Positions 9,748 through 46,317 of a stretch of DNA of 64,000 nt are shown here, in pieces. Position numbers and translations under genes: made by a program. Source of the DNA: Actinomadura sp. CNU-125. GTDB taxonomy: Bacteria > Actinomycetota > Actinomycetes > Streptosporangiales > Streptosporangiaceae. Below the pieces are notes generated by a model. That model had not been told where the DNA came from. It saw only the letters and a program-made list of their open reading frames with translations, and searched no databases. The stretch lies in contig NZ_MKJY01000088.1 in the NCBI RefSeq assembly GCF_001942465.1, positions 1 to 64,000 of the forward strand. Direction: 5' to 3'. Position 1 is the first letter of the stretch. Every line of letters begins with the position of its first letter.

Positions 9748-9760
9748 ACGATCCCCCCGC

Positions 9761-9811: not shown

Positions 9812-9998
9812 CACCTGCGTGATCACCGTGTGGAGGGGTGGGTGGGTGGGGCGGCCGGTTCTGGTCTGTTACCGACCTAGACTTTCGCCCTGGACGGTCA
9901 ACGGGTCATGATTTGCCTCACATGGGTCTCATAAGTAGTTAATTACCCCCGGTGTGCGGCGCGGAACGCAGGGGAACCGAGCGGCGGGGAGGGTATAC

Positions 9999-11481: not shown

Positions 11482-11688
11482 CACCGCGGACTCCTTGGTC
11501 GGCCTATGGTAGGCCCACCGTAAGGCGCCGGGCGTGGTGTCACAACGTGTTCGGCAGAACACGGACGGAGATTGTCGCGGTGCCCAACGTGGCGCCGGGG
11601 CAAGGTGGGCCTGACGGTACTCGCCACCTGTCCGGACGCGGTGTGAGATCGTGAGATCGACGCACCGCAGTTCGGAGCAGGATCTGGT

Positions 11689-12438: not shown

Positions 12439-12439
12439 C

Positions 12440-13014: not shown

Positions 13015-13025
13015 AGCCGGGCGGG

Positions 13026-16490: not shown

Positions 16491-16562
16491 GGCACCCGAC
16501 TCTAGAAGCCCGCTATGGAGCCCCTGGGGGTGAAATGTGCGGATCTTGTGAAGAAGACCGGT

Positions 16563-18041
16563 TCACACTCCGATCGGCCACGTGTGGACCGGCTCGTTGC
16601 CCCGCATGTGCGCCGCGTACGCGCGCGTCATCATCCGCAGCGCGTCGTGCCGGGACGCCCCGGACCGTTCGAGCTCCGCGACCGTCTCGATCTGCCACGC
16701 GGCGCCCGTCCGCCCGGTCACGCAGCGGCGCTCGATGATGCCGAGCAGCCGGTCGCGGCGGGCCGGGTCGACGCCCCACCGGTCGAGCCCCTCGTACGCC
16801 AGCGGCAGCAGCTTGCGCAGCACCAGTTCCGCCGCCGGGACGTTCCCCATGCCAGGCCAGTACATCGTCGCGTCGATCCCGTCGCGGGCCGCGCGGTGCA
16901 GGTTCTCCTCGGCGGTGTTGAACGACATCCGCGTCCAGACCGGCCGGTCCTCCTCCGCCAGCGCGCGCACCACGCCGTAGTAGAACGCGCCGTTCGCGAC
17001 CACGTCCGCCGCCGACGGCCCCGCGGGCAGCACCCGGTTCTCCACCCGCAGGTGCGGGCGGCCCTTGAACACCGCGTAGATCGGACGGTTCCAGCGGTAG
17101 ACGGTCCCGTTGTGCAAGGTCAGCTCGCCGAGCTGCGGCACGCCGCCCGCGTCCAGGACCTCCCGCGGATCCTCCTCGTCGCACAGCGGCAGCAGCGCCG
17201 GGAAATACCGGGTGTTCTCCTCGAACAGGTCGAACACCGACGTGATCCAGCGTTCCCCGAACCACACCCGCGGCCGGACGCCCTGCGCCTTCAGCTCGTC
17301 CGGACGGGTGTCGGTCGACTGCTCGAACAACCGGATCCGCGACTCCTGCCACAACCGGTGCCCGAACAGGAACGGCGAGTTCGCCGCCGTCGCCACCTGC
17401 GGGCCCGCCACCGCCTGCGCCGCGTTCCAGTACGCGCCGAACTGGTCCGGGCTCACCTGCAGATGGAACTGGACGCTCGTGCAGGCCGCCTCCGGGGTGA
17501 TGTTGTCGGCGTGCATCCGCAGCGGCTCCGCGCCGTCGATCGAGATGTGGAACTCCTCGCCGCGCGCCGCGAAGATCTGGTCGTTCAGCATCTTGTACCG
17601 CGCGTTCGCCGACAGCGTCTCCTCCCCGATGTCGCCGCGCCGCAGCGTCGGCAGGATCCCGATCATCACCAGCCGTCCGCCGACCTCCTGCGCGCGCCCG
17701 TCCGCGTGCAGCAGGTGATCGCGGACCTCCGACTCCAACTCCCCGGCGCCCTCCCCGCCCAGCTCGCGCGGCGGGATGTTGATCTCCAGGTTGAACTGCC
17801 CCAGCTCGGTCGCCCACGCGGGGTCGGCGATCGCCTTCAGCACGTCCGCGTTGCGCATCAGCGGGTCGCCGACCGCGTCGATCAGGTTCAGCTCGATCTC
17901 CAGGCCGATGTGCGGGCGCCGGAAGTCGAACTGGGATTCGCCGAGCATGCGCGCCAGGACGTCCAGGCACCTGCGCACTTTCTCCCTGTACCGCCGCCGA
18001 TCCTCGCCGCTGATGTTGGCCGAGGCCACGTCCCTGCCCAT
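16563..18041 (-). CDS. Glutamate-cysteine ligase family protein (GCS2)
   Basis: The 492-residue protein has the GCS2 features: IGLEIELNLIDAVGDPL near residue 45, GQFNLEINIPPREL near 85, CTSVQFHLQVSPDQF in the substrate region and GRPHLRVENRVLPAGPSAAD toward the C-terminus. The fold makes an ATP-dependent gamma-glutamyl bond. Relatives form gamma-glutamylcysteine (ergothioneine or glutathione routes) or other gamma-glutamyl amides, and at this length the substrate cannot be assigned. The ATG at 18041 stands alone. No thiol-pathway gene is adjacent, so the gene appears monocistronic. A divergent histidine kinase gene begins 170 bp away. Confidence 0.85.
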   Translation of the reverse strand: MGRDVASANISGEDRRRYREKVRRCLDVLARMLGESQFDFRRPHIGLEIELNLIDAVGDPLMRNADVLKAIADPAWATELGQFNLEINIPPRELGGEGAGELESEVRDHLLHADGRAQEVGGRLVMIGILPTLRRGDIGEETLSANARYKMLNDQIFAARGEEFHISIDGAEPLRMHADNITPEAACTSVQFHLQVSPDQFGAYWNAAQAVAGPQVATAANSPFLFGHRLWQESRIRLFEQSTDTRPDELKAQGVRPRVWFGERWITSVFDLFEENTRYFPALLPLCDEEDPREVLDAGGVPQLGELTLHNGTVYRWNRPIYAVFKGRPHLRVENRVLPAGPSAADVVANGAFYYGVVRALAEEDRPVWTRMSFNTAEENLHRAARDGIDATMYWPGMGNVPAAELVLRKLLPLAYEGLDRWGVDPARRDRLLGIIERRCVTGRTGAAWQIETVAELERSGASRHDALRMMTRAYAAHMRGNEPVHTWPIGV

Positions 18042-29077: not shown

Positions 29078-29851
29078 TCAGGTCTTGTTGAAGGTGCGCT
29101 TGGCCCAGAGGTAGGAGAGGGCGGCGATGCCCGCGCACCAGGCGGTGGCGATGGCGGCGTTGTCGCCGATGGGGGTGCCGAGCAGGAGTCCGCGGACGGT
29201 TTCCATGATGGGGGTGAAGGGCTGGTAGTCGGCGAACCAGCGCAGGGCGGTGGGCATGTCGTCGGTGGGGACGAAGCCGCTGCCCAGGAAGGGCAGGATG
29301 ACCAGGGGCATGGGGGCGTTGCTGGCGGCTTCGGGGGTGGAGGACTTCAGGCCGAGGGCGACCGCCAGCCAGGTGACGGCCAGGACGAACAGGGTGAGCA
29401 GCCCGACGGCGGCGAGCCATTCGAGGGTGGTGGCGTTCGGCCGGAAGCCGATCGCCAGGGCGATGCCGATGAGGACGGCCATGCCCAGGAGCTGCTGGAC
29501 GACGCTTCCGACGACGTGTCCGGTGAGGACGGAGGCGCGGGAGATGCGCATGGTGCGGAAGCGGGCGATGATGCCTTCGGTCATGTCGGTGGCGACCATG
29601 ACGGCGGTTCCGGTGGCGGCGGTGGCGGCGGCCATGAGCAGGATGCCGGGCAGGACGTAGTCGATGTAGGCGTCGCGTCCGCCGCCGATGCCGGCGCCCA
29701 GGGTGCCGCCGAGGACGTACACGAACAGCAGCAGCAGGATCACCGGCGTGATGATCAGCTGGATGGTCATGGACGGGTAGCGGATCAGGCGCTTGAGCTG
29801 GCGCCGGACCATCGTGGAAGAGTCGCGCGCGGCGAGGGCGAGGGAGCTCAT
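29078..29851 (-). CDS. ABC-2 type transporter permease, DrrB family
   Basis: The 257-residue membrane protein has six predicted helices. These include MTIQLIITPVILLLLFVYVL, YIDYVLPGILLMAAATAATG and LLTLFVLAVTWLAVALGL, followed by LKSSTPEAASNAPMPLVILP, the conserved DrrB region. It forms the membrane part of a drug or lipid exporter with the ATPase encoded upstream; its ATG overlaps that gene's stop (ATGA). It is the last gene of the DUF4097-ATPase-permease operon. Confidence 0.93.
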   Translation of the reverse strand: MSSLALAARDSSTMVRRQLKRLIRYPSMTIQLIITPVILLLLFVYVLGGTLGAGIGGGRDAYIDYVLPGILLMAAATAATGTAVMVATDMTEGIIARFRTMRISRASVLTGHVVGSVVQQLLGMAVLIGIALAIGFRPNATTLEWLAAVGLLTLFVLAVTWLAVALGLKSSTPEAASNAPMPLVILPFLGSGFVPTDDMPTALRWFADYQPFTPIMETVRGLLLGTPIGDNAAIATAWCAGIAALSYLWAKRTFNKT

Positions 29852-30816
29852 CGGGTTGCCTCCTGCTTCTGGTCCTGCCGGCCGGTGAGGGTGAGGAAGA
29901 CGTCGTCGAGGTCGGGGGTGTGGACCGCCAGGTCGGCCGGTTCGGCACCGGCCGCGTCCAGCCGGGACAGCAGGTCGCGCAGTGCCGCGACACCGCCGTC
30001 GGACGGGACGTGCAGCGTGAGCCGGTCGTCGTCGGACGGGTCCACGAAACCGGTGCCCAGCGCGCCGAGCGCGGCGGCGAGGGCGGTCTCGTCGGTGAAC
30101 CGCAGTGACAGGTGGCCGCCGGGGATGAGGCGCTTGAGTTCGTCGGCGGTGCCTTCGGCGATCAGGCGTCCGTGGTCGAGCAGGGCGATGTGGTCGGCGA
30201 GCTGGTCGGCTTCCTCCAGGTACTGGGTGGTGAGGAAGATCGTGACGCCGCCCGCGACGAGTTCGCGGACGATGCCCCACATCGTGCGGCGGCTGCGGGG
30301 GTCCAGGCCGGTGGTGGGCTCGTCCAGGAAGATCACGCCGGGGTCGCCGACCAGGGTCATCGCCAGGTCGAGTCGGCGCTGCATGCCGCCGGAGTAGGTG
30401 GAGGCGGGCTTGCGGGCCGCCTCCACCAGGTCGAACCGCTCCAGCAGTTCGGCGGTCTTGCGCTTGCCGTTCTTGCGGGACAGGTGGTGCAGGTCGGCCA
30501 TGAGGAGCAGGTTCTCCTCGCCGGTGAGCAGCTTGTCGACCGCCGAGTACTGGCCGGTGACGCCGATCGCCCCGCGCACGTCGTCGGGCTCGCGCGCCAG
30601 GTCGTACCCGGCCACCCGCACCTCGCCGCCGTCCGCCCGCGCCAGCGTCGACAGGATCTGCACGGTCGTGGTCTTGCCCGCACCGTTCGGGCCGAGCAGG
30701 GAGAAGATCGTCCCTTCGGGGACCGCCAGGTCGATGCCGTCGAGCACGACCTTGTCGCCGTCCTTGCCGGGGTAGGACTTGCGCAGCCCCTCGGCTGCGA
30801 TGGCCAGGTTCGTCAT
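29848..30816 (-). CDS. ABC transporter ATP-binding protein, DrrA family
   Basis: The 322-residue ATPase has Walker A in LLGPNGAGKTTTVQIL, the signature YSGGMQRRLDLAMTLVG, Walker B GVIFLDEPTTGLDPRS and the His switch in FLTTQYLEEAD. A C-terminal domain of about 100 residues is typical of DrrA daunorubicin-resistance ATPases. AAGGAA lies six bases before the ATG at 30816. It couples ATP hydrolysis to export through the downstream permease. The upstream DUF4097 gene belongs to the same operon. Confidence 0.95.
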   Translation of the reverse strand: MTNLAIAAEGLRKSYPGKDGDKVVLDGIDLAVPEGTIFSLLGPNGAGKTTTVQILSTLARADGGEVRVAGYDLAREPDDVRGAIGVTGQYSAVDKLLTGEENLLLMADLHHLSRKNGKRKTAELLERFDLVEAARKPASTYSGGMQRRLDLAMTLVGDPGVIFLDEPTTGLDPRSRRTMWGIVRELVAGGVTIFLTTQYLEEADQLADHIALLDHGRLIAEGTADELKRLIPGGHLSLRFTDETALAAALGALGTGFVDPSDDDRLTLHVPSDGGVAALRDLLSRLDAAGAEPADLAVHTPDLDDVFLTLTGRQDQKQEATR

Positions 30817-32856: not shown

Positions 32857-33759
32857 GTGGAGCTTCGGGACATCGAGATCTTCCTGGTGCTGGCGCAGGA
32901 GTTGCACTTCGGACGTACCGCCGAGCGGCTGCGCATCACCCCGTCCCGCGTCAGCCACGTCATCAAGAAGACCGAACGCCGCGTCGGCGCGCCGCTGTTC
33001 GCCCGCACCTCCCGCACCGTCCGCCTCACCCCGCTGGGCGAACGGCTCCGCGACGACCTGCTGCCGGCGCACCGGCAGATCCAGCAGGCCGTGGACCGGG
33101 CCGTCGCCGAGGCGCGCGGCATCACCGGCACCCTGCGGGTCGGCTACTCCACCCCCTGGTGCGCCGACCTGCTCCTCAAGGCGGCCCGGACGTTCCGCGA
33201 CCGCTATGCCGACTGCACCGTCCAGATCCAGGAGATCCAGCTCAGCGACCCGCACGGCTCGCTGCGCCGGGGCGACCTCGACCTGCAGCTCAGCGAACTC
33301 CCCGTCGCCGAGCCCGGCATCACCGTCGGCCCCACCATCCTGTCCGAGCAGCGGGCCCTGCTCGTCCCCGCCGACCACCCCCTCGCCCGGCGGGAGAACA
33401 TGTCGATGGAGGACCTCGTCGACGTCCCGCTGATGACCCCGGGCGGGAGCTTCCCGGACTACATGGCGGCCGTCCACCTGCCCACCCACACCCCGTCCGG
33501 CCGCGCCATCCGCCGCGGGCCGGTCTTCACCTACTGGGCCGAGGTGCTCTCCCTGGTCGCCGCCGGTCTCGGCGCCTTCCCGGTCTCCGCGCGCGGAGCG
33601 CGCTACTTCGGCTGGCCCGGCATCGCCTTCGTCCCCTTCCGGGACGCGCCGCCCATCGAGTACGGGCTCCTGTGGCCCACCAGCGGGCACACCCCCCGCG
33701 CCATGGCGTTCGCAGACCTCCTCGGCGACCTCACCGACACCGCCGCCTCGGACGAATGA
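32857..33759 (+). CDS. LysR family transcriptional regulator
   Basis: The 300-residue protein has an N-terminal winged HTH (ELRDIEIFLVLAQELHFG, then RTAERLRITPSRVSHVIKKT) and a periplasmic-binding-like effector domain (GTLRVGYSTPWCADLLLKAA, ILSEQRALLVPADHPLARRE). GTG at 32857 is preceded by AGGGGGG. The gene is tail to tail with the terpenoid-NRPS operon (38 bp apart), which makes it the nearest candidate regulator of that cluster, but the operon's promoter is 7 kb away. The 18-bp tandem repeats lie in front of it. Confidence 0.92.
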   Translation: MELRDIEIFLVLAQELHFGRTAERLRITPSRVSHVIKKTERRVGAPLFARTSRTVRLTPLGERLRDDLLPAHRQIQQAVDRAVAEARGITGTLRVGYSTPWCADLLLKAARTFRDRYADCTVQIQEIQLSDPHGSLRRGDLDLQLSELPVAEPGITVGPTILSEQRALLVPADHPLARRENMSMEDLVDVPLMTPGGSFPDYMAAVHLPTHTPSGRAIRRGPVFTYWAEVLSLVAAGLGAFPVSARGARYFGWPGIAFVPFRDAPPIEYGLLWPTSGHTPRAMAFADLLGDLTDTAASDE

Positions 33760-33797: not shown

Positions 33798-35108
33798 TCA
33801 GCGGTGTGCGGGCCGCTCGCTGTTCGTGGCGGCGTACAGGTCGGTCACCGCCCGCTGCCAGGCGGTGTGCAGCGCCGGTAGGTCGGGCACACCGGCGTCG
33901 GCCAGGACCGAGGCGGTGACCCCGCCGCCGTACTGCGTCATGGCCACCATCAGGCGCTGCCGGGGGACCAGGTTCGGATAGGGGATCATTTCGACGACCG
34001 GCGCCCCGCCCACGGCCAGTCCCGGCGCGACCCGGACGGTGGTGACGGTGGTGGCCAAGCGGCGAGGATCGGCGCCCCAGGAGCACATCGCGCGGAGCAG
34101 CGGGTACGGGACGCGGTGGAAGTGGGCCCGGCCGCGGTCGCGGTGACGCAGCATGCGCCGGGCGGCGGTCTGCTCGGTCACGCCGCGCAACTGCCGCAGC
34201 GGGTCGGGATCGCCGCACGGCAGGCCGATGGGCAGCCCCCCGAGATGGTTGCCCAGGGCGCCCGCGCGGTCGGCCGGGCGCAGGTTCACCGGGATGCCGA
34301 CGGGCAGCGTCCGGCCCCGGCGGCCGGTCGCGGTTCCCGCGGTGGGCGACGTCCAGTCCGGCAAGGACCAGGTTCGCAGTGCCGCGGTGAGGGCCGCCAG
34401 GCACACCTGGTTGAGGCTGGCGCCGGTGGCGGACGTCGTGGCCCGCAGCAGGTCCGCGTCCAGAGCGACGGCGTGCAGCACCCGGCGGCCGGTGAGCGGC
34501 CCGCTGACGGGCGTCCACGCGGGGGCGCGGCGCAGCGACACCCCCGGGTCCCAGCGCGGCTCGCCGGGCGCCCGCGTGCTCCGTGCGCGTTGCGCGGCTT
34601 GGTAGGGGACGTGACGCGGTGTCCCCAGCCGCCGTCGGCCGAACAGCGCCTCCAGGGTGGCGGTCATGGCCATCCCGTCCTGGAAGGCGTGGTGGTTGCG
34701 GTAGAGGAGGAGGTGCTCGTCCGGCCGGTGGCCGTGCAGGAGCGTCAGGTCCCATAGCGGGCGCCGGTCCGGCAGCGGGCGCCGCATCCGCGCCGTGGCG
34801 GCCGCGAGGACGTCGGCGCCTTCGGGCAGTTTCCGCTCGTGCAGGTGGGCCGCGATGTCGAAGCCCGGATCGGGCGTCCAGCGCCGCTCGCGCCAGTCGG
34901 GCCGGTAGGCCAGGACGGGCGCGGACGCGGCCCGCGCGGCCAGCAGTTCGCGCAGCTCCGGCGGCGTCGGCGCCGGGCCCCGCAGCCGCAGCAGCATCCC
35001 GATGTGCATGTGCGACTCGTCGGGGCCCTGCCCGGCCAGCCACTGCTGGACCCGGTCGTGCACCGAGAACGCCACCGTCGGCGCGACGTCCTGATCTTCC
35101 CCCGTCAT
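33798..35108 (-). CDS. WS/DGAT-type acyltransferase
   Basis: The 436-residue protein has the HHxxxDG motif as NHHAFQDGMAMTATLEALF, the wax-ester-synthase family start FSVHDRVQQWLAGQGPDESH and the later GNHLGGLPIGLPCGD block near residue 300. The family transfers acyl groups from acyl-CoA to alcohols (wax esters, triacylglycerol) and shares its fold with NRPS condensation domains. It is the last gene of a four-gene operon with an NRPS, a P450 and a prenyl diphosphate synthase, so the acceptor may be a hydroxylated terpenoid or the NRPS product rather than a storage lipid (inference). AAGGA precedes ATG 35108, 41 bp after the NRPS stop. Confidence 0.88.
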   Translation of the reverse strand: MTGEDQDVAPTVAFSVHDRVQQWLAGQGPDESHMHIGMLLRLRGPAPTPPELRELLAARAASAPVLAYRPDWRERRWTPDPGFDIAAHLHERKLPEGADVLAAATARMRRPLPDRRPLWDLTLLHGHRPDEHLLLYRNHHAFQDGMAMTATLEALFGRRRLGTPRHVPYQAAQRARSTRAPGEPRWDPGVSLRRAPAWTPVSGPLTGRRVLHAVALDADLLRATTSATGASLNQVCLAALTAALRTWSLPDWTSPTAGTATGRRGRTLPVGIPVNLRPADRAGALGNHLGGLPIGLPCGDPDPLRQLRGVTEQTAARRMLRHRDRGRAHFHRVPYPLLRAMCSWGADPRRLATTVTTVRVAPGLAVGGAPVVEMIPYPNLVPRQRLMVAMTQYGGGVTASVLADAGVPDLPALHTAWQRAVTDLYAATNSERPAHR

Positions 35109-35149
35109 GAGTTCCGTCCTTCGGCGTGGCGAGAGGGCGAGGCCGCGGC

Positions 35150-38100
35150 TCAGCCCCGCGGGGCGGAGCCGCTGGTCTCCTGGGCGGCGAACGGCCAGGG
35201 CTCGGTGAGCTCGTCGAGCGGCGGGGAACCGGGCCGCCCGCAGGCCGCGACGATGTGCCGCAGCCGCTCCAGCAGGCCGCGCACGTAGGAGTCGGGGGCG
35301 AAGGAGGAGTCGTACGCGGCGATCAGCCGGATCCGGTCGTCCTCCTGCCTGGCCATGACGATGAGCTGGCCGGGGAAGTCGTAGGTTCCCTGGAACCCCT
35401 CGGTGTGCATGTCCTGGCGCAGGATCGAGCATCCGTCCAGGTTCAGCCCGGTCACGGGCGGCAGGACGTCGAAGGTGACGAACTGTGAACGAGCCAGTAG
35501 AAGGCCCATCTCGGGCGGCAGCGTGCCGGGACGGAACAGCGACACGCTGTCGTGCCGCAGCGCCTCGTGCAGGTCCCGGTGGGCGTCGTCGAGCGCCTGC
35601 GGCACCGGCCGTCCGGGGCGCGTCCGGTGGCGGACCAGCACCAGATCGGTCACCCAGCCGATGGTGTGCGCCAGCGGCTCGGAACGCAGGGACGTCGCGA
35701 CCAGCAGCCGGGTGTCCGGATCGCCGGTGTCGGCGGCGACGATCGCGCACAGCGGCGCGTACAGGGCACTGGCGAAGGTGAGCCGCCGGGCCCGCGCCAT
35801 GCGCAGGAACGCCCGGGCCGGTTCGGCCGGGACCAGCACGCTCCGCACCCGCCTGCCGGAATCGGCGGTCCCGCCTTGCACCTCGGCGGGAATGAGCGCG
35901 ACCGGCCCGCATCCGGCGACCCGCTCGCTCCAGAACCGCGTGTCCTCCGGCCGGGGGACGGACGGTGCGGGGGCGACCAGCGCGGCGTAGTCCGACGGCG
36001 GGACGACGGGCCGTTTCCCCGCGCGGACGGCGGCGTAGCGGCGGCCGATCTCCTGTTCGAGGATGCCGACCGAGACCGCGTCGCCGACGAGGTGGTGCAG
36101 GCGCAGCGCCAGCAGATGTTCGTCGTCGGTCACGCGCACCAGGTCGGCGGCGAAGACCCTGCCGTCCGGCACGTTCAGCGGTTCGGCCGACTGGTGCGCG
36201 GCGAGCACCGAAGCGGGGTCGCTCCCCCGCGCTTCGAGTACCCGCAGAACCCCGGTGGGCGGCGGGCAGACGACCTGGTGGGCGTCCTGCGGGGTTCCGG
36301 TCAGGCGCACGCCGACGCGCAGCCCGGCCTGCGCGGCCACCGTCTGGTCCACGGCCTCGGCCAGCGCGGCGCGGTCCAGCGGCCCGCGGACGAGGTGGCG
36401 CGTCTCCAGGAGGAACAGCGGCCCGGAACTGCGGGCGGGGTCGTTCGCCTGAGCGAACACCTGCGCGGGGCTGAGCGGCAGCCTGCCCGCACCCGGCGGC
36501 GCCTGGACGCCGCCGGGTGCGGCGGTCGCGGGCCGGTGCCGCGGGCCCCGGGCGGTGATCAGGGCGGCCAGCCGCGCCGCCGTCGGCGCGTCGAACACCG
36601 CCCGGGTCCCGAGGTCGGCGCCGAACCGTTCGCTCAGCCGCCCGGCGAGCCACACCGCCCGCAGCGAGTCCCCGCCCAGCTCGACGAAGTCGTCGTGCGC
36701 CCCGACCTCGTCGATCCGCAGGAGTTCGGCGATCACCAGCGCCACGGCCCGCTCCGTCTCCGACACCGGACGCACGTAGGGGGTGCTCAGTTCGGGACGG
36801 GCGGCGGGCGGCGCGGGCAGCGCCGACGCGTCGAGTTTGCCGTGCCGGGTGACCGGCAGGTCCGCGACGATGACGCAGGCGGCGGGACGTTCGTGGGCGG
36901 GCAGCCGCTCCGCCGCCCGTTCGCGCAGCGCGGGCAGCAGCCGCGCGGCCGCGTCCTGCTCGTCCCGCTCGTCCCGCTCGGGCACCACGTAGGCGATCAG
37001 CCGTCCGGTGCGCTGCACGACCACGGCGTCGCGGACTCCGGCGACGTCGCGCAGCACCGCGGCGACGCCCTCCGGCTCGACCCGAAGGCCCCGGACCTTG
37101 ACCTGCTGATCGATCCGGCCGTGCAGTTCCAGCCGCCCGTCGGGGCGCCATCGGCCGAGGTCGCCGGTCCGGTAGACGCGCCCGCCCGCGGCGGACGGGT
37201 GCGGGACGAAGCGGTCGCGGGTGAGTTCGGGGTCGCCGAGATAGCCCTCGCCGAGATTCGGTCCCGCCACGCACACCTCGCCGGGCCGGCCGTCGGGTAC
37301 GGCGGCGCCCCCGTCGTCCAGCACGAGCAGCTCGGTGTTGGCGATCGCCGTCCCGACCGTCACCTCGTCGCCCGGGCCCAGCGTCGCCGACGTGCACCAC
37401 ACGGCGGCTTCGGCGGGACCGTACTGGCTGATCAGCTCGACGCCGGGCATGCGCAGATGGTGATCGGCGACCAGTTCACGGCCGCACGCCTCGCCCACCA
37501 GGATCACCTGCCGCAGGGTCGGTGAGGGGGCGCCGACCGCGGGCAGGACGGTGCGGTACAGGGACGGGGTCAGACAGGCTTGGGCGACGTCCTCGACCGA
37601 CAGCGCCGAGATCAGCTCCTCGATCGCCGCGCCCGGGGCGGGCGGCAGCAGCCGCACCGTGCCTCCGGCCAGCAGCGTCCACCACAGCGAGCCGATGAAG
37701 GCGTCGAAGGTCGGCGGGGCGCTGGTGACCGAGGTGCCGACCGGACCGGGATAGCGGTGCCCGAACGCCTGCATCGAGTTGCTGTAGGCGGCGTGGGAGA
37801 GCGCCACCGCCTTGGGACGGCCGGAGGTCCCGGACGTGTGCAGCACGAAGGCCGTGGCGTCGAGCGGCGGGTCCCGGTCGGGGGGCGTCGCGGGCAGTGC
37901 CGCGATCCTCGCCGCCGACTCCGGATCGTCGAGATCGATCCGGTGCGGTCCGGCGGGCAGGTCCTGCTCCCGTAGCCCGAGCACGCAGCGGACGCCGAGC
38001 GCGGACGTCATCCGGTGCAGCAGCCCCGCCGGGTATTCGGCGTCGACCGGCACGTGGACGGCGCCCGCGGCGAGGACCGCCACCTGCGCCAGCACCCCGG

Positions 38101-38347
38101 GCACGCCGCGGGGCAGGGCGGACATGACGCGGTCGCCCGGCGCCACCCCCGCGTCGCCCAGACGGGCGGCGAGGCGATGGGCCCCGTCGACGAGTTCGGC
38201 GTAGGTGAGCCGCGTTTCGGCGTCCCGCACCGCGACATCGGCGGGGCATTCCCGCGCGCGCCGCCGCAGCAGCGCCGGCAGCGGCAACGCCGGGAACCGC
38301 ACCGATTCGCCCCGATGGGCGCCCACGTCCGGGCGCAGCTCACTCAT
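35150..38347 (-). CDS. Nonribosomal peptide synthetase, adenylation-carrier-condensation (A-PCP-C)
   Basis: The protein has 1065 residues. Adenylation domain (about 20-520): TSGTSGRPKA at 171, FDAFIGSLWW at 214, ISQYGPAEAAVW at 306, YRTGDLGRW at 392 and the catalytic Lys504 in TRHGKLDASAL. Carrier: LGGDSLRAV with Ser561. Condensation domain (about 620-1050): HHLVGDAVSV at 751, where the usual Gly after Asp is Ala. There is no thioesterase or reductase, so the aminoacyl thioester is probably passed to an acceptor by the C domain itself. The amino acid cannot be predicted safely. The ATG overlaps the P450 stop by eight bases, giving coupled translation. The neighbours suggest that a terpene alcohol or amine is the acceptor (inference). 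Confidence 0.93.
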   Translation of the reverse strand: MSELRPDVGAHRGESVRFPALPLPALLRRRARECPADVAVRDAETRLTYAELVDGAHRLAARLGDAGVAPGDRVMSALPRGVPGVLAQVAVLAAGAVHVPVDAEYPAGLLHRMTSALGVRCVLGLREQDLPAGPHRIDLDDPESAARIAALPATPPDRDPPLDATAFVLHTSGTSGRPKAVALSHAAYSNSMQAFGHRYPGPVGTSVTSAPPTFDAFIGSLWWTLLAGGTVRLLPPAPGAAIEELISALSVEDVAQACLTPSLYRTVLPAVGAPSPTLRQVILVGEACGRELVADHHLRMPGVELISQYGPAEAAVWCTSATLGPGDEVTVGTAIANTELLVLDDGGAAVPDGRPGEVCVAGPNLGEGYLGDPELTRDRFVPHPSAAGGRVYRTGDLGRWRPDGRLELHGRIDQQVKVRGLRVEPEGVAAVLRDVAGVRDAVVVQRTGRLIAYVVPERDERDEQDAAARLLPALRERAAERLPAHERPAACVIVADLPVTRHGKLDASALPAPPAARPELSTPYVRPVSETERAVALVIAELLRIDEVGAHDDFVELGGDSLRAVWLAGRLSERFGADLGTRAVFDAPTAARLAALITARGPRHRPATAAPGGVQAPPGAGRLPLSPAQVFAQANDPARSSGPLFLLETRHLVRGPLDRAALAEAVDQTVAAQAGLRVGVRLTGTPQDAHQVVCPPPTGVLRVLEARGSDPASVLAAHQSAEPLNVPDGRVFAADLVRVTDDEHLLALRLHHLVGDAVSVGILEQEIGRRYAAVRAGKRPVVPPSDYAALVAPAPSVPRPEDTRFWSERVAGCGPVALIPAEVQGGTADSGRRVRSVLVPAEPARAFLRMARARRLTFASALYAPLCAIVAADTGDPDTRLLVATSLRSEPLAHTIGWVTDLVLVRHRTRPGRPVPQALDDAHRDLHEALRHDSVSLFRPGTLPPEMGLLLARSQFVTFDVLPPVTGLNLDGCSILRQDMHTEGFQGTYDFPGQLIVMARQEDDRIRLIAAYDSSFAPDSYVRGLLERLRHIVAACGRPGSPPLDELTEPWPFAAQETSGSAPRG

Positions 38348-39764
38348 GGCTCTCCTCGCTGGGGTTCGTCGACCGGCTCAGGACACGCATCGGGAGGCGG
38401 CCCGGCCGCATCGCGACGGCCCGCACGGGCCGCACCGTCCGGTGGACGGGTTCCAGCCGCCAGCGGGCGGTGATCGTGGCGAGAAAGATGGACGCCTGGT
38501 GGAGGGCGAACTGGTCGCCGATGCATTTGCGGGCGCCCATGCCGAAGGGGATGAACGCCTGCCGGGGGATGGCGGCGGATCGTTCGGGCAGCCACCGGTC
38601 GGGGTCGAAGCGGTCCGGGCGCGGGAACAGGTCGCTCCGGTGATGGATCAGGTAGGGGCTGAAGACGACGGTGGTACCGGCGGGCAGCACGTGCGTCCCC
38701 AGCCGGGCGTCGGCGGTGACGCTGCGGGTCAGCAGCCACGCGGGCGACTTCAGCCGCAGGGTTTCGGTGATGACGCGGCCGGTCAGGTCGAGAGCGGGCA
38801 GGTCTTCGTGGGTCGCCGTCCGGCCGTCCAGGACGGCGTCGACCTCGGCGCGCAGCCGCCGTGCGACCTCGGGATGCCCCCCGAGCAGGTGCAGCGCCCA
38901 GGCGAGCGTGGCCGCGGTCGTCTCGACACCGGCGCCGAAGAAGGTGACGGCGTGGTCGACGATCTCGTCGTCGGACAGGCCGCTGCCGTCGCCTTCGGTG
39001 TCGCGCGCGGCCAGCAGCGCCGCGAGCAGGTCCTTGCGCTCGTCCGCGACCGGACGGCCGGGGCCGGGGCCGTGCGCGGTCCGGCGCTGCGCGATCACCG
39101 TGCCGAGGGTGCGGCGCAGCCGGTCGCGGGCCCGGGCGTAGCGGCGGGCGCCTCCGGCGGGCAGCCAGCCCAGCGCCCGGTCCACGGGCGGCGGTATCAC
39201 CGTGCGGCGCAGGACGCCCTGGAGAATGGTGGTGACGTCGTCCAGCGCCTGCTGCATCACCGTGGGCGGGAGGGAGTCGGAGAACAGCGTCCTCATCACG
39301 ATGGTGGACGCGGCTTGCATCGTCTCCGCCACCAGGTCGATGACCTGGCCGTGCCGCCAGGAGGCGGTGACCTCGTCGATGGTGGCGGTCATGGTGCCCG
39401 TGTAACCGGGGAGCATGTCGCGGTGGAAGGCGGGCTGCGCCAGCCGCCGCTGCCGCCGATGCTCGGCGTGGACGCAGCTCCCCAGCCCGTTGCCGCCGAC
39501 CTCGCGGCCGCGCTCGAACAGCAGGCCGCCCTTGTCGAAGGTGGCGTCGTTGACGAGCACCTGGCGGGTCAGGTACGGATCGCAGACGACCACCGCCGTG
39601 AGCGGCCCGGCCTTGATGTGCACCAGATCGCCGTGCGCGGGCAGCGACTTCAGGAACGCCCAGGGGTCGCGCAGCGCGGGCAGCAGGTGCCCCAGCACCG
39701 GCAGCGCCCCGGGCGCCACCGGAATGTTGGGGACGGCTCCGGCCGCCGTCGGCTCCGCGCTCAC
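38340..39764 (-). CDS. Cytochrome P450
   Basis: The 474-residue P450 has the I-helix FFGAGVETTAATLAWAL, the K-helix ITETLRLKS and the heme loop FIPFGMGARKCIGDQFAL, with Cys as the iron ligand. The N-terminus (PGALPVLGHLLPALRDPW) has no membrane anchor. Its length and the KCIGDQFA heme region recall bacterial P450s that oxidise terpenes, such as pentalenene oxygenase (resemblance by eye only). It lies between the prenyl diphosphate synthase and the NRPS on one transcript, and a hydroxyl it installs could be the attachment point for the aminoacyl or acyl unit. Electron partners are not encoded nearby. Confidence 0.94.
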   Translation of the reverse strand: MSAEPTAAGAVPNIPVAPGALPVLGHLLPALRDPWAFLKSLPAHGDLVHIKAGPLTAVVVCDPYLTRQVLVNDATFDKGGLLFERGREVGGNGLGSCVHAEHRRQRRLAQPAFHRDMLPGYTGTMTATIDEVTASWRHGQVIDLVAETMQAASTIVMRTLFSDSLPPTVMQQALDDVTTILQGVLRRTVIPPPVDRALGWLPAGGARRYARARDRLRRTLGTVIAQRRTAHGPGPGRPVADERKDLLAALLAARDTEGDGSGLSDDEIVDHAVTFFGAGVETTAATLAWALHLLGGHPEVARRLRAEVDAVLDGRTATHEDLPALDLTGRVITETLRLKSPAWLLTRSVTADARLGTHVLPAGTTVVFSPYLIHHRSDLFPRPDRFDPDRWLPERSAAIPRQAFIPFGMGARKCIGDQFALHQASIFLATITARWRLEPVHRTVRPVRAVAMRPGRLPMRVLSRSTNPSEESHE

Positions 39765-39849
39765 CGGGCTCTCCCGGCACCGACCGTCCGGCGGATCGTG
39801 GCCTGCTGCATCGTGCTCCTTCCCATCGGGTCGAGGTGTGCGGGGCCGG

Positions 39850-40889
39850 TCAGCGGGTGCGGGCGACGACCTGCCGGGCCAGCGTGGTCAGGGCCTGTTC
39901 GGCGGCGTGGTCCGGCGTGACCAGCCGCAGGTGCTCCAGCGCCACGCCGATGTGGTGTTCGGCGTTCGCCGCCGCCCAGCTGCGGCCGCCCGCCTCCTGC
40001 ACCAGACCGGCGGCCCGGACGAGGTCGTCGCCGGTGACGTCCGCGGCGTCTCGTACAGTTCGGCCAGCGCCCGTCCGGCGGGCGTCGGGGAGGCCAGCGC
40101 GTACACGACCGGCAGCGACTTCTTCCGGGACGCCAGGTCGGATCCGACCGGCTTCCCGGTCCGGGCCGGATCGCCCCAGATGCCCAGCAGGTCATCGATG
40201 AACTGGAACGCCAGGCCCAGATGCAGGCCGTAGGCCCGCATCCCCTCGATCCGGTCGGCCTCGGCACCGGCGGCGAGCGCGCCCAGCGCACCCGCCGCCG
40301 CGGTCAGCGCGGCGGTTTTGGCCGCGGCCCGCTCTTCGGCCTCCAGCAGCGTGCCGCCGGGCCGCTCCTCGGCCTCGCTGTCGGAGTGCTCGCCCTCGAT
40401 GAGCTGCTGGATCGCCCCCGCGAGCACGCACACGCCCGCGCCGCCCAATGGCGGCGGCCGCTCGGCCAGCACCTCGGTGGCCAGGAAGAACAGCGCGTCC
40501 CCGGCGAGGATCGCCGCCGGGACGCCGAACACCGCCCACACCGCCGGACGCCCACGGCGCAGTTCGTCACCGTCGATCACGTCGTCATGGACCAGGGACG
40601 CGTTGTGCGCCAGCTCCACCGCCACCGCGGCCGGTACCGCCTGCTCCGCCGTCCCGCCCACCGCCTCGCACGCCAGCCGCACCAGGCGGGCCCGTATGCC
40701 CTTTCCGCCGTCCGCCGTCACCGGGTGCCCGGCCACGTCCTGCCACCCCAGGTGGTAGGCCACTATTCCGCGCACTCGCGGAGCCAACCGGTCCACCGCC
40801 GTCCGCACCCCGGACGTCACGAGATCGTCAGGTACCTGCGGACGCCGAGCCGGGCGCTCCTCTTCGCCTACCGTCGCAGGAAAAGTCAC
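39850..40889 (-). CDS. Polyprenyl diphosphate synthase, GGPP/FPP-synthase-like (one frameshift)
   Basis: The first Asp-rich motif is LVHDDVIDGDELRRGRP and the second FQFIDDLLGIWGDPARTGKP, with KGIRARLV upstream and SRKKSLPVVYAL downstream. This is the actinobacterial trans-prenyltransferase pattern. Near 40055 one G appears to be lost, and after correction the C-terminus reads AADVTGDDLVRAAGLVQEAG and ends LARQVVARTR at the stop 39850. The product is about 345 residues. GTG 40889 has GAGGAA upstream. The enzyme condenses IPP with allylic diphosphates. Chain length is not determined by sight, although the DDLLGIWGD form is common in GGPP synthases. It supplies the divergent terpene synthase. 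Confidence 0.88.
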
Positions 40890-40968
40890 TGGCGTTCCTC
40901 TCTCATGCCCGCCAGGCCACCCGCACTCGGTTTCGGACCCGACGCGTCGGACACGACTCAGCATTCCA

Positions 40969-41154
40969 TGACTGAGAGTAGTTGAATCGAAACGGAGAGT
41001 AATAGACCTGTATCAGCGCGACAGTGCACGACCACCTGCCGGGTAAGTGCATCTGCTCCGTCTTGGCTGGTCAGGGCAGGGTTGGGTCGGTATCTGGGGG
41101 ACGGTGACATGCGTCAATACACGCTGTAGTATTTGTTGACTGTAAGTAGTCGAC
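40969..41154. promoter_or_regulatory. Divergent promoter region with two related operator-like elements
   Basis: The 293-bp gap between the prenyl synthase operon and the terpene synthase contains TGACTGAGAGTAGTTGA (40969-40985) and TGACTGTAAGTAGTCGA (41137-41153), identical at 14 of 17 positions. The second is part of a dyad, GTTGACT-GTAAGT-AGTCGAC (41135-41154). One copy lies in front of each transcript, so one regulator may control both. No other open frame is seen in the gap. Confidence 0.6.
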
Positions 41155-41182
41155 CCGCGGATCGCCGAGGGGGCGAATTGCG

Positions 41183-42262
41183 ATGGGCGAGATTAAAGTG
41201 TTTTGTCCGGTGGCATTGAAAATGCACCCGGCGGGCGCCGAACCGGTGGACGCCTTCGGGGTTGAATGGGCCGTCCGGCACGATCTGTTCACGGGCGACA
41301 GCGCGGCCGCGCGGATGAACGTCGGGCTGGCCATCGCCGCCGCCATGCCGTTCACGTCCGAAGAGTTCGTCAAGGCGTTCACCGCCTACTGCTACTGGAC
41401 GTTCGCCTGGGACGACCACCTGGACACCCTCGCGGACGACCCCGCGGCGCTGGCCGCCCACATCGCCGAGGTCGCGTTCGCCCTGAACGCCTCCACCGAA
41501 GCGCCCATCGCCGAGGACCGATGGGTCCGGGGCGCCCGGGCCTCCCGCGACCTGCTGAGCCGCTGCATGTCACCGGCGGGGCGGGCGGCCTTCGTGGAGA
41601 CCAACAACTACTGGATCACCGGTGAGCTCTGGAAACGGGTGATGCAGCACCGGCAGGCGCGGCCCGGCGTCGGGGAGTTCATCCGGATGCGGAAGGCCAA
41701 GATGGGCATGACGGTCCTGGCCGCGATGACCGGCCCGGGCGGCGGCTACCCGATGGGCTCCCGGCAGCTGAGCGAACCGCCGGTACAGGCATTCAGCGAG
41801 GCGGTGCTGCTGGCGTGCTCGTTCTTCAACGACATGGTCAGCGCGCTGAAAGAAGCGCCCGTCCAGAAGCACATCAACATCATGGCCGCGCTCGGCCGCG
41901 ACGACGGCCTGCCGGACGACCGGACCAATGCCGCGGCCTACGAGCTGTACGAGCGCACGGTGTGCCTGGCGCTGCGCCTGCAGCGGCGGCTGCTCGCGGA
42001 TCCGCGGCCCGAAGTCGTCCGGTACGCCGCCGAGCTCCCGCAGTGGATCCCCGCGACGCTGCACTTCACCGCCACCAGCGCCCGCTACCACCTGCCCGAC
42101 CTGCCCGGCGACATCCTGGAGCTTAGCGACACGCCCCTGGTGTGGGACTCCGACGACCACACCCCGCCGCCCCACCCGCAGATCGCCTGGTGGTGGGATC
42201 ACGCCCTGCCCCACGTGGCGTCCGCGCCGCACCCGCGAACGACCGCATCGGTACGAAGCTAG
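41183..42262 (+). CDS. Class I terpene synthase
   Basis: The 359-residue protein has the Asp-rich motif DDHLD at 77-81 (FAWDDHLDTLADD), the complete NSE triad NDMVSALKE with Asn216, Ser220 and Glu224, and the C-terminal Arg-Tyr pair (ARYHLPD at 300). These residues bind three Mg ions and the substrate diphosphate in bacterial cyclases. The single alpha domain indicates ionisation-initiated cyclisation. FPP or GGPP are both possible; the neighbouring prenyl synthase makes a diterpene product plausible. A G-rich Shine-Dalgarno (near 41169) lies before the ATG. The gene diverges from the prenyl synthase-P450-NRPS-acyltransferase operon. The product is not predictable. Confidence 0.93.
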   Translation: MGEIKVFCPVALKMHPAGAEPVDAFGVEWAVRHDLFTGDSAAARMNVGLAIAAAMPFTSEEFVKAFTAYCYWTFAWDDHLDTLADDPAALAAHIAEVAFALNASTEAPIAEDRWVRGARASRDLLSRCMSPAGRAAFVETNNYWITGELWKRVMQHRQARPGVGEFIRMRKAKMGMTVLAAMTGPGGGYPMGSRQLSEPPVQAFSEAVLLACSFFNDMVSALKEAPVQKHINIMAALGRDDGLPDDRTNAAAYELYERTVCLALRLQRRLLADPRPEVVRYAAELPQWIPATLHFTATSARYHLPDLPGDILELSDTPLVWDSDDHTPPPHPQIAWWWDHALPHVASAPHPRTTASVRS

Positions 42263-42275
42263 TCGCCACCGGTCG

Positions 42276-42462
42276 CTACCGGTCGCTCAGGAACGGCAGT
42301 ACTCGGGGGAGCACCGCGTCGGGGCGTCGGACGGCGACGACGTACTCGGCCCGCCGCTCGACCGCGTAGGCCGCGCGGTCATGGGGCGCGTCACTGGCGC
42401 CCAGCCCCAGCGGATCGATGGCGATCACCGTGTGGGACGCCGCCAGCACGTTGTGGTGCATC
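42276..42462 (-). pseudogene. Remnant of an alpha/beta hydrolase
   Basis: On the minus strand the text ASHTVIAIDPLGLGASDAP, then HDRAAYAVERRAEYVVAV, reads like the early part of an alpha/beta hydrolase (first strands and the region before the nucleophile). It then runs into unrelated sequence and a stop at 42276. The nucleophile elbow and everything after it are absent, and the upstream side runs into the HxlR gene on the other strand. It looks like a leftover fragment from recombination. Confidence 0.55.
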
Positions 42463-42744
42463 CAGATCCTCGTCGAGCTGGGTGAGGGGCCTCGAAGATT
42501 CACCCAGCTCGAACGTGCCATCGCGGGCGTCAGCCGCCGGATGCTGACCCTCAACCTCCGCAACCTCGAACGCAACGGCCTGATCACCCGAACCGTTCAC
42601 CCGACCGCGCCGCCGAGCGTGGAGTACGCGCTCACCCCGCTGGCCGACCAGATCCGCGATCCCTTGGAGGCGCTCGCGGACTGGGCCCGCCGAGCCGTCC
42701 CCGATCTGCTGGCGGCTCGGCGCGCCTACGACGCCCGCACCTGA
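42418..42744 (+). CDS. HxlR family regulator, perhaps with a replaced N-terminus
   Basis: The 108-residue protein has the HxlR winged helix: LWCIQILVELGEGPRRFTQL, VSRRMLTLNLRNLERNGLIT and VEYALTPLADQIRDPLEALA. HxlR proteins usually begin with a conserved Cys about 15-20 residues before the W-IL segment. Here the preceding MAITVWDAAST lies in DNA that, on the other strand, looks like a hydrolase fragment, so the native N-terminus may be lost. It follows the terpene synthase by 155 bp in the same direction and could regulate the cluster, but this is not shown. Confidence 0.75.
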   Translation: MAITVWDAASTLWCIQILVELGEGPRRFTQLERAIAGVSRRMLTLNLRNLERNGLITRTVHPTAPPSVEYALTPLADQIRDPLEALADWARRAVPDLLAARRAYDART

Positions 42745-43035: not shown

Positions 43036-46000
43036 ATGAAGCACTCGATGCGAGCGGGTCTCACCCTGGCGGGGGGACTCCTCTTCGCCACCGCGGGCGG
43101 CCTCGCCTACGACGCCCTGACGGCCGCGCCCGCCCACGCGGCGGTGCCGGGCACGGAGCCGTGGCAGCGGTGCCCGCCCTACAGCACCGACTACAACCGG
43201 TTGGACTGCGACCCGAACGACACCGGGACGACGGTGCCCGGATTCGATCCGACGGACATCCGGCGACAGGTCCAGGAGATGCGGGAGCGGTTCGGCGGGC
43301 AGTACGCCCAGCCGCGGCGCCCCGCTCCGGAGGCCCGGCCCGAGACGCCGAAGCAGCGCCCGGAGAGCCGGCGGACCGAGCCGCGCCGACGGAGCGAGCC
43401 GCGGCCGTCGGCGGAGCGGCCGGACGAGAGCACCCCCGACCAGCCCCCGATCGTGCCACCGGACCGGGTCGTCCGGCCGCCGACGGACCGCCGCCCGGCA
43501 CCGGACCCTAAGCCGAACCCGACGGCGCCGAAGCCGAACCCGGCGCCGCCGTCCAGGACCGGCCCCGGCGCGCCGTCGAGCCCCGGCACCGGTCAGGCCC
43601 CGCCGTCCGGTCCAGGCGCTCCGGCGAACCCGGGCGGGCCCGGGAATCCGCCCGGGCAGGTGCCGAACACGCCGGGGACGCCGCAGCCGACGCGTCCGTC
43701 CAGGCCGGACGTCCCGCAGCCGGGCACCAACCCGCCGCCGTCGGGACCGCCCGGCGGGCCGGCCACCCCAGAGGACGAGGGAGACGGCCGGGCGCGACGG
43801 CTCGGTCCGGTGTGGAACCCGGGCGTCTGGGCCCGGTACTTGAACACTCGCTTCCAGATGTGGCTCTCCTCCAGCCAAGCTCCGACCGAGCCCGGCTATG
43901 TCTGGAAGAAGACGGCCGAGAAGACGCTCGAACGTTCGTGGGACAAGAACCAGAAAAGCGGTTGGAACACCTTTCCCGACCCTCAGTGGTACACCGCCCC
44001 CGGCTACGCCAAGCTCGCCGCTGAGCTCAGCTACGCGGCTTGGCAGGCATGGCTCGAGACACCGGGTGGCAACCGGAATGAAGTGAAGAAGATCGCGCAA
44101 CGTGTCGAGGAGCTTCGAGGGAAGCTGGACGAGGCCAGGGCGCGCGGCGATGCGGCCGCGGCCGCCAAGCTGGAACGCCTCCTGGCCAAGGCGGAGCTTC
44201 GCTTGGCGCAGGCGAAGGAGATCGAGACGGGCCTCTGGCCCGGCTTGGAGGAGTTGGAGAACGGCAACGGGCAGGAAGGACAGCAGGGGCAGGGCGAAGA
44301 CGGCGGCGAGGCCGGTACCGAGGGGCAAGGCGGCGAGGCCGGTACCGAGGGGCAAGGCGGCGAGGCGGGTAGCGAAGGCCAGGGCGGCCAGAGTGCGCCG
44401 AACCAGATCGAGGCCGGGCGGACGATCGAGCCGCCGAACTCTCCGGTCGCCCCCCAGCCAGAGGTTCCCCAGTCCGAGGGTTCCCAGCGCGATCTTCCCC
44501 GCCCCGAGGTTCCGCAGCGCGACCTTCCCCGGCCGGATGTCCCCGGGGGTGAGGAGCCGGTGGACCCGCCCGCGCAGCCGGACGGCCCGGGTGGGCCCGC
44601 CACGCCAGGCCACCCGTTCCCGGTTCCGTTGCCTGAGCCGGTGACGCCCGAGGGGCCCGAGCAGCCCGAGACGCCGAACCTGCCGGGTGATCCCACAGCG
44701 CCCGAGACTCCGCGGACTCCTGAAGGTCCCGGCCTACCGGCCGATCCCGAGCCGAACCTGCCCGGGGAACCCGAGGGTCCCGAGGGGCCCGGTCTACCGG
44801 GCGACCCCGAGCAGCCTGACGCGCCGGTTCTGCCCGGCGACCCCGAAGCGCCCGAGAGTCCGGGGACGCCCGAGGGGCCGGGTGAGGAGCCGTCCGACGA
44901 TGCCGAGGATGACCCGTTCCGTGTTCCTCCGGCGTTCCCGGCGGTTCGTCCGGGGCCGACCGTGCCCGGGACGCCCACGCCTCGGGAGCAGCCGCGCGTG
45001 CGGCCCGTGCCGGGCCGTCCGTCCGGTCCTGACCTGCCCGGACGGGTGCTGGAGCGTCCCCGGACGCCTGCCCCGGCCGGACAGTCGCGCCCGTCCGGTG
45101 GCCGGTCCGAGCCCTCGCGCCCGTCGGACACCCGTCCCGGGACCGGACGTCCGTCGGGCACCCGTCCGGGCGGAGGCGGTCGCCGACCGCGGCCGCGGCC
45201 CGCGCCCTCGCCCGTGCCCGCGACCGGCGGGCCGGTGCGTACCCTGCCCGCGCCCGTCCCGTCCCGCCCGCCGCTCGGAACCCCCAAGCCGGGACCGGCT
45301 CCCGAGTGGGACGAGACGGGACCGATCGTGAAGCGGGAACCGCCGATGCCGGATCGTCCGCCGCAGCAGCCGGTGAAGCCGAAGGTGGAGACGCCGAAGT
45401 TCACGCCGGACAAGGTTCCGGGGGTGACGGGCAAGTCGCCGTTGCGGGGTCGCAACATCGCGGCCGAGGTCGCGACTCTGGGGTTGGAGGAGTTGTACGG
45501 CAGAGCGCTCTCTCAGAACTTGAACTGGGCGGCGCAGAAGATCGCGGAGGATCCGGAGTTCGCGCGCCAGTTCGCCGAGGAGTACGACCGGTTCCAGGAG
45601 CTGTCGTGGGTCGAGCGGCGCAAGCGTGACTTCGGGCAGTTCCTGGGGTTCAACTCCGAGCGGTTCATCGAGGACTACTTCGTCCCCGAGTTGAGGGACC
45701 TTGCGGAGGAGGTCTTGAATCCGCCGCTGCCGCAGCAGACGACGCCGCCCGCTCCGGATGACGGCAGGACCAGGTTCGGGGTGATGACCCCGCAGGACTG
45801 GGCCAACACCCATACGACCGACGCGCTCTACCGCTACAAGGTGGGCGAGGAAGGCCAGAACCTCGACCTGCTGCTGCGCGACGAGCCGCGCCGTGCCCCG
45901 GCGTCCGCCCCTGCTCCGGCGGAGGAACCGGATCGGGAGGAGGAGGAAAAGGAGGACGACGACGGGCCGAGCGGGCACGAGAAGCGCATGGAGATGATCG

Positions 46001-46317
46001 AGGAGGGCCGGGAGTACCGGCGCCAGAAGGAGGCGGAAGAGAACTCCGGGAACGAGCGGCCGGATAACCACGACGGTGGTCACGGGCTGAGCGACGGCGG
46101 TGGTGACGCCCCGGCGCCCAGCGCGCCAGCGCCCGCGCCGAGCGCTCCGCCTTCGGGCGGGTCGTCCAACACCATCGACGGGGGCGGCTCCGGCGGAGCG
46201 CCGCCGCAGGGCGGCGGCCCCGCACCGGCGCCCACGGCCCCAAGCTCGCCAGGGAACGCGGATTCCGATCCCGCACATTCGATGAACAAGCTCGACGATC
46301 CGTCCATCAAGGCCTGA
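43036..46317 (+). CDS. Large secreted proline-rich repetitive protein of unknown function
   Basis: The 1093-residue protein has a signal peptide: MKHSMRAGLTLAGGLLFATA, a second short hydrophobic stretch, and a likely cleavage after APAHA. Residues 50-250 are Pro/Arg rich. A short folded-looking domain follows near 270-400 (GYVWKKTAEKTLERSWDKNQ, then a charged coiled-coil-like ELRGKLDEARARGDAAAAAK). Next come GEAGTEGQG repeats, VPQRDLPRP repeats and long GDPEAPE/GPEGPGLPG-type repeats. A second helical domain lies near 810-900 (LEELYGRALSQNLNWAAQKI). The tail is Glu and Pro rich. No sortase motif, C-terminal membrane helix or lipobox is seen, so it is probably released or wall-associated. I do not recognise the family. 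The 3.3-kb frame is intact. GGC before the ATG is a weak ribosome site. Confidence 0.75.
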   Translation: MKHSMRAGLTLAGGLLFATAGGLAYDALTAAPAHAAVPGTEPWQRCPPYSTDYNRLDCDPNDTGTTVPGFDPTDIRRQVQEMRERFGGQYAQPRRPAPEARPETPKQRPESRRTEPRRRSEPRPSAERPDESTPDQPPIVPPDRVVRPPTDRRPAPDPKPNPTAPKPNPAPPSRTGPGAPSSPGTGQAPPSGPGAPANPGGPGNPPGQVPNTPGTPQPTRPSRPDVPQPGTNPPPSGPPGGPATPEDEGDGRARRLGPVWNPGVWARYLNTRFQMWLSSSQAPTEPGYVWKKTAEKTLERSWDKNQKSGWNTFPDPQWYTAPGYAKLAAELSYAAWQAWLETPGGNRNEVKKIAQRVEELRGKLDEARARGDAAAAAKLERLLAKAELRLAQAKEIETGLWPGLEELENGNGQEGQQGQGEDGGEAGTEGQGGEAGTEGQGGEAGSEGQGGQSAPNQIEAGRTIEPPNSPVAPQPEVPQSEGSQRDLPRPEVPQRDLPRPDVPGGEEPVDPPAQPDGPGGPATPGHPFPVPLPEPVTPEGPEQPETPNLPGDPTAPETPRTPEGPGLPADPEPNLPGEPEGPEGPGLPGDPEQPDAPVLPGDPEAPESPGTPEGPGEEPSDDAEDDPFRVPPAFPAVRPGPTVPGTPTPREQPRVRPVPGRPSGPDLPGRVLERPRTPAPAGQSRPSGGRSEPSRPSDTRPGTGRPSGTRPGGGGRRPRPRPAPSPVPATGGPVRTLPAPVPSRPPLGTPKPGPAPEWDETGPIVKREPPMPDRPPQQPVKPKVETPKFTPDKVPGVTGKSPLRGRNIAAEVATLGLEELYGRALSQNLNWAAQKIAEDPEFARQFAEEYDRFQELSWVERRKRDFGQFLGFNSERFIEDYFVPELRDLAEEVLNPPLPQQTTPPAPDDGRTRFGVMTPQDWANTHTTDALYRYKVGEEGQNLDLLLRDEPRRAPASAPAPAEEPDREEEEKEDDDGPSGHEKRMEMIEEGREYRRQKEAEENSGNERPDNHDGGHGLSDGGGDAPAPSAPAPAPSAPPSGGSSNTIDGGGSGGAPPQGGGPAPAPTAPSSPGNADSDPAHSMNKLDDPSIKA

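Follow-up and report, generated by a model that had tools for sequence, protein, structure and literature searches.

A candidate terpene-aminoacylating gene cluster pairing a single-module NRPS with a WS/DGAT acyltransferase in an actinobacterial draft genome

Gene content of the locus

The window, by which we mean the whole stretch of 64,000 nucleotides analyzed here, belongs to contig 88 of a draft assembly of 9.96 Mb (603 contigs, 88% complete). Within it lie genes for a terpene synthase, a prenyl diphosphate synthase, a cytochrome P450, an NRPS, and a WS/DGAT-like acyltransferase (Table 1). All five proteins passed their Pfam cut-offs, and Pfam together with a motif search placed the five genes where the original prediction had put them, with their motifs intact. 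The predicted overlap of the P450 and NRPS genes was borne out at 8 bases, as was the divergent orientation of a terpene synthase carrying both DDxxD and NSE motifs; 41 bases separate the NRPS and WS/DGAT genes. The intergenic region between the two divergent genes is likely to hold the promoters for both strands. Five Pfam-supported proteins, whose partners were also found together at other loci, argue that the cluster is not a chance assembly.

Table 1. Features of the window and of three other loci that encode a relative of its NRPS
Feature	Position	Strand	Basis or remark
WS/DGAT-like acyltransferase, 436 aa	33798..35108	-	PF03007 48.2 bits, PF06974 27.6 bits; HHAFQDG
Single-module NRPS, A-PCP-C, 1065 aa	35150..38347	-	Pfam domains; GGDSL at residue 558, HHLVGD at residue 751
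Cytochrome P450, 474 aa	38340..39764	-	PF00067 258 bits; ETLR, FGMGARKCIG
Prenyl diphosphate synthase, frame broken at ~40044-40050, start codon uncertain	39850..40964	-	PF00348 189.7 bits; alignment of relatives
Divergent intergenic region, 218 bases	40965..41182	.	computed gap
Class I terpene synthase, 359 aa	41183..42262	+	PF19086 60.3 bits; DDHLD at residue 77, NDMVSALKE at residue 216
PKS genes: ACP-KS, KS-AT-DH, ACP-TE, zinc dehydrogenase	1729-9747	+	ketosynthase split near 2706-2727
DrrA-type ABC transporter ATPase and probable membrane partner (by eye)	29078-30816	-	ATPase above NCBIfam cut-off; 3 kb from cluster
LysR-type regulator	32857-33759	+	flanks cluster
HxlR-type regulator	42418-42744	+	flanks cluster
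Protein of 1093 aa, signal-like N-terminus (by eye)	43036-46317	+	adjoins terpene synthase
Locus L098, NRPS	7539-11675		beside it: methyltransferase, P450, terpene synthase
Locus L099, NRPS	7591-11958		beside it: terpene synthase, P450
Locus L107, NRPS	9450-13778		beside it: 248-aa protein, terpene synthase, P450 (P450 by BLAST, 43% to that of the window)

When aligned with relatives from three other loci (L022, L023, and L032), the prenyl synthase could be followed in one frame to ~40050 and in another from ~40044 to the stop at 39850, and the GC content by codon position shifted across the stretch of the break. The operon does contain the prenyl synthase assigned to it, as PF00348 confirmed; what had gone unnoticed is that its frame is broken in the draft assembly. 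A PKS gene of the window (1729-5423) is likewise split inside its ketosynthase, likely by another assembly indel. Finding two frame breaks in 64 kb, in a draft this fragmented, suggests that the break in the prenyl synthase is also an assembly indel; a real mutation is conceivable. Two observations bear on the product of this enzyme. The residues that precede its first Asp-rich motif (AHNASLVHDDVID) are small, which we take to be a sign of GGPP formation, and it matched the GGPP synthase model IdsB (NF045549) at 262 bits, below the curated cut-off of 475 and with the frame of the query broken. GGPP is thus the probable product, with FPP as a conceivable one.

The NCBIfam models nearest to the P450 were pentalenene oxygenase and albaflavenone monooxygenase. 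It scored 436.7 bits against NF045812 (pentalenene oxygenase), where the cut-off is 800, 348.9 bits against NF051859 (cut-off 700), and 266.6 bits against the structure 3dbg. Below the first of these cut-offs, it is only related to pentalenene oxygenase. Among the neighboring genes, the transporter could possibly export the cluster product, and the 1093-aa protein beside the terpene synthase gave no Pfam or NCBIfam match.

Relatives of the terpene synthase and the acyltransferase

The terpene synthase is a class I enzyme by the PF19086 cut-off and its DDxxD and NSE motifs, and its start codon lies at the position seen in a relative (P0007). In eight of 10 other loci of its clade, a related prenyl synthase (at least 46% identity) was encoded within 3 kb, and two (L023 and L044) contained a P450 related to that of the window. 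None of these 10 fetched loci had an NRPS of the family under study or a WS/DGAT enzyme of the window's type; a generic NRPS-like match (34%) was present in L025. At E ≤ 1e-60, a profile of the clade matched only the source genome among 341 genomes of its family (five best candidates scored per genome), 2 of 296 genomes of its class including its own (six candidates scored), and 7 of 150 genomes from G099's genus, which we infer to be Nocardia (thirteen candidates scored). Within the source genus, E ≤ 1e-40 was reached in 5 of 65 genomes, one being the source genome and the other four giving weak matches. These counts come from few candidates per genome, and a weak or lower-ranked match could therefore have escaped. 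The closest relative of the terpene synthase was found in Spirillospora sp. NPDC127200, where a WS/DGAT relative lies on a contig of the same size (1013877), putatively the same one. At the inferred Nocardia loci (L032 and L042-L047; L045 and L024 were counted as one locus), a prenyl synthase lay within 3 kb in six of seven, and the stretches covered encoded no NRPS or WS/DGAT enzyme of the window's families.

The acyltransferase falls within the WS/DGAT superfamily, with PF03007 and PF06974 both above cut-off and an HHxxxDG motif, and scored 147.2 bits against the wax ester/triacylglycerol synthase model TIGR02946, below its cut-off of 309.95. Both Pfam domains and the motif are shared with the enzymes of known structure 7nxg and 6chj, to which the window's enzyme is only remotely similar (31.4 and 29.2 bits); its own subfamily occurs near terpene synthase genes. 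That subfamily was matched in 10 of the 65 genomes of the genus, the source genome included. We fetched the loci of nine of the eleven other matches, leaving out the two weakest (G013 and G024); one of the nine, L083, spans only 5.4 kb. A terpene synthase and a P450 were encoded near the WS/DGAT gene in five of these nine same-genus loci (L081, L082, L084, L086, and L087). The layouts of L084 and L086 are near copies, as are those of L081 and L082, and the five therefore represent about three independent cases. This recurrence supports the earlier proposal that the WS/DGAT enzyme acts as the acyltransferase of a terpene cluster, and it associates the subfamily with terpene clusters, often together with a carrier-bound acyl source.

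The composition of these neighborhoods bears on which enzyme of the window transfers the acyl group. Conceivably the WS/DGAT enzyme, and not the C domain of the NRPS, moves a PCP-bound acyl group to the terpene, with A-PCP serving as a loading station. Such a division of labor would fit L084, where an AMP-ligase and a small carrier protein accompany the terpene synthase and P450 (all by Pfam), L086 and L087, where the ligase and carrier were found by BLAST and the terpene synthase and P450 by Pfam, and L088, where the WS/DGAT gene adjoins a polyketide synthase. We nevertheless regard it as unlikely. The WS/DGAT enzymes of L084 (9317-10567), L086 (9316-10563), and L087 (9293-10489) retain the first His of HHxxxDG and lack the second; in L081 and L082 the WS/DGAT, P450, and terpene synthase genes are consecutive without an NRPS; the NRPS of the window has an intact C domain of its own; and the terpene-linked NRPS loci L098, L099, and L107 gave no WS/DGAT match.

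The NRPS and its terpene-linked relatives

As predicted, the NRPS has the order A-PCP-C, no release domain was found in it by Pfam, and it ends in a condensation domain whose HHxxxD motif (HHLVGD) is intact. An AlphaFold model of the C domain gave a complete fold with a mean pLDDT of 84.4. SgcC5 was the top row in a fold comparison, with a Z score tied with ordinary condensation-type domains, and the modeled fold would thus be consistent with ester formation without singling it out. A check of A-domain specificity yielded the code DAGCIVQVWK, aligned by hand at what we take to be the GrsA positions, which matched no known code. In a search of eight genomes, the source genome included, the best match outside the window among those listed (at most 98 candidates scored) was a generic NRPS, 36% identical over most of its length.

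Its closest relatives, also built of one module, measure 1378-1494 aa. In every one of the 14 that were aligned, a methyltransferase domain separates the A core from the PCP; the NRPS of the window lacks this domain. A tree, flagged for its long outgroup branches, nested the window's enzyme within the methyltransferase-bearing group, adjoining P0021-P0023, and a second tree grouped it likewise. With the window nested among such enzymes, the domain would most simply have been lost there. The three closest relatives, P0021, P0022, and P0023, have HN in place of HH, with Asn for the second, catalytic His, which may leave these C domains inactive or atypical. This raises a question about the role of the C domain in that branch and counts against the function we propose below.

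Loss of the methyltransferase domain, absent against 14 of 14 relatives among which the window is nested, combined with the frame break at ~40044-40050 in the prenyl synthase, might mean that the cluster is decaying and yields no working product. This we hold to be very unlikely: no other frame or motif of the cluster is damaged, the terpene synthase could draw on GGPP or FPP of the host regardless, and a 603-contig, 88%-complete draft with a split PKS gene in the same window points to assembly indels.

Relatives of the NRPS were sought by their methyltransferase part at a threshold of E ≤ 1e-50. Matches came from 9 of 390 genomes in Lentzea's family and from 1 of 392 Streptomyces genomes (group names inferred), and nine of the 10 loci were fetched, leaving out G875, the weakest of the nine matches in Lentzea's family. 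A PF19086 terpene synthase and a P450 adjoin the NRPS in three of nine (L098, L099, and L107; two from Lentzea's family and one from Streptomyces), an adjacency expected by chance with P of ~1e-4 to 7e-4 if 5-10 terpene synthases are assumed per genome. No terpene synthase was found within the 17-20 kb covered at the remaining six. The terpene synthases of the three loci are ~22-31% identical to the reference used and distant from that of the window; either the terpene acceptors differ or the link between NRPS and terpene synthase is loose.

The second tree was built from 589 columns with the methyltransferase insert excluded. It omits L103, L104, and L105, which are partial or not complete A-MT-PCP-C, and P0032 is absent from both trees. 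A branch with support of 99/98 separated the window, L098, L099, and L107 from L100, L101, and L102, three loci that lacked a terpene synthase within 17-20 kb. When context labels were shuffled over the seven rows with known context, 26 of 500 shuffles were as clustered as the real labels, and the argument from this clade therefore rests on few rows. Two further genomes, those of Actinomadura sp. 21ATH and Spirillospora sp. NPDC029432, putatively encode a protein of the terpene synthase clade and an NRPS relative on a single contig, since the contigs that carry them agree in size (166423 and 203677, respectively). The original prediction depended on NRPS and terpene genes being conserved together at least somewhere, and the three loci and the supported branch indicate that they are.

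Most C domains form amides. The C domain of the window could accordingly join its amino acid to an amine or to a carrier-bound partner encoded elsewhere, with the terpene genes belonging to a separate, neighboring pathway. The six of nine family loci that gave no terpene synthase, and the other NRPS genes that adjoin the NRPS in L100 and L103, would be explained in this way. We think it improbable, in view of the overlapping or closely spaced same-strand genes in the window, the supported branch that sets the terpene-linked NRPSs apart, and the genes called in L098, L099, and L107, which gave no further NRPS match.

The NRPS group without a terpene synthase may make another product. Side by side with NRPS relatives we noted an FMO-like flavoprotein in L098 and L101 (by Pfam) and in L102 (by eye), and a small methyltransferase gene lies nearby in L098 (by Pfam) and in L101 and L102 (by eye). 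L101 also has a reductase gene of the NAD_binding_4 (male sterility) type.

Proposed function and characterized counterparts

We consider it somewhat probable that the cluster makes an aminoacylated and possibly also fatty-acylated terpene, with all chemical steps, their order, and the substrates read from the genes. The prenyl synthase would supply an isoprenoid chain, presumably GGPP, the terpene synthase would cyclize it, probably to a diterpene, and the P450 would introduce one or more hydroxyls. The A domain would activate an amino acid and load it onto the PCP. At the His/Asp motif of the C domain, a terpene hydroxyl would then attack the thioester, freeing an aminoacyl-terpene ester without a thioesterase, and the WS/DGAT enzyme could subsequently acylate a second position. 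Direct delivery onto the terpene, as the original prediction had it, is the best reading of an NRPS that has an intact C motif, no release domain, and no partner module nearby, and whose family recurs with terpene synthase and P450 genes; the chemistry itself is deduced.

Mining for the five-gene neighborhood returned no second copy of the exact set among the genomes and loci searched, and only its parts recurred at other loci. The set looks like the pair of prenyl synthase and terpene synthase common in the terpene synthase clade, joined by two cassettes that are found separately at other loci. More broadly, there may be an actinobacterial family of terpene-aminoacylating NRPSs, mostly A-MT-PCP-C, that work with varied terpene synthases and P450s; in the window the methyltransferase would have been lost and a WS/DGAT enzyme gained, and the terpene core would be decorated twice, with an amino acid and with an acyl group that is fatty or comes from a carrier. 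Our confidence in this wider picture is evenly balanced.

The suggestion that the system was undescribed did not hold in general, since fungal A-T-C NRPSs that esterify terpenes have already been characterized (PMC5024094, PMC10720950). Purified AstA from the astellolide pathway of Aspergillus oryzae formed an ester from a sesquiterpene and aryl acids in vitro (PMC5024094). Compared by its description, AstA resembles the NRPS of the window in consisting of one A, T, C module and in being clustered with terpene cyclase and P450 genes; it differs in being fungal, in using aryl acids, and in being accompanied by a HAD-like cyclase (PMC5024094). AneB (aculenes) and ThmA (CJ-12662) are also single-module A-T-C enzymes, whose reaction is the formation of an ester between an amino acid and an alcohol; AneB was assayed in vitro, and mutants in yeast showed that it depends on the serine of its PCP and on both His and Asp of the C motif (PMC10720950). 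The AneB motif starts with QH where that of the window starts with HH, and AneB and ThmA are fungal and act on sesquiterpenes (PMC10720950). Other ester-forming examples are FlvI of flavunoidine biosynthesis, likewise a fungal single-module A-T-C enzyme, which is described as esterifying dimethylpipecolate to dimethylcadaverine (PMC10720950), and SgcC5, the free-standing condensation enzyme of C-1027 (PMC5024094).

The NRPS of the window has the A-T-C order without a release domain, the C-motif His and Asp (HHLVGD), and the PCP Ser (GGDSL) of the AstA, AneB, and ThmA type, and its gene, like those of its relatives in L098, L099, and L107, is clustered with terpene cyclase and P450 genes. By analogy, we infer that it may work like these fungal enzymes, a resemblance of kind with no claim of descent. 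Genome announcements mention "NRPS-terpene" or "terpene-NRPS" clusters in Streptomyces and Actinokineospora; among the matches listed, the open-license literature contained no bacterial single-module NRPS that joins terpenes and amino acids. What looks new is the NRPS family in bacteria, together with its methyltransferase, and the combination of such an NRPS with a WS/DGAT enzyme.

If our reading is true, hybrids of terpenes and amino acids made by single-module NRPSs, described for fungi, would extend to bacteria, the family would offer a natural collection of C domains that may form esters with different terpene skeletons, and a WS/DGAT subfamily would be tied to terpenes. An A-MT-PCP-C NRPS beside a terpene synthase and a P450 is a genetic signature open to mining, and the short operons ease expression.

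As a separate observation, L087 holds a second odd terpene-acyl cluster (6529-17507), comprising an AMP-ligase, a carrier protein, a WS/DGAT enzyme, a polyprenyl synthase (by BLAST), a squalene-hopene cyclase family protein, a class I terpene synthase, and a P450.
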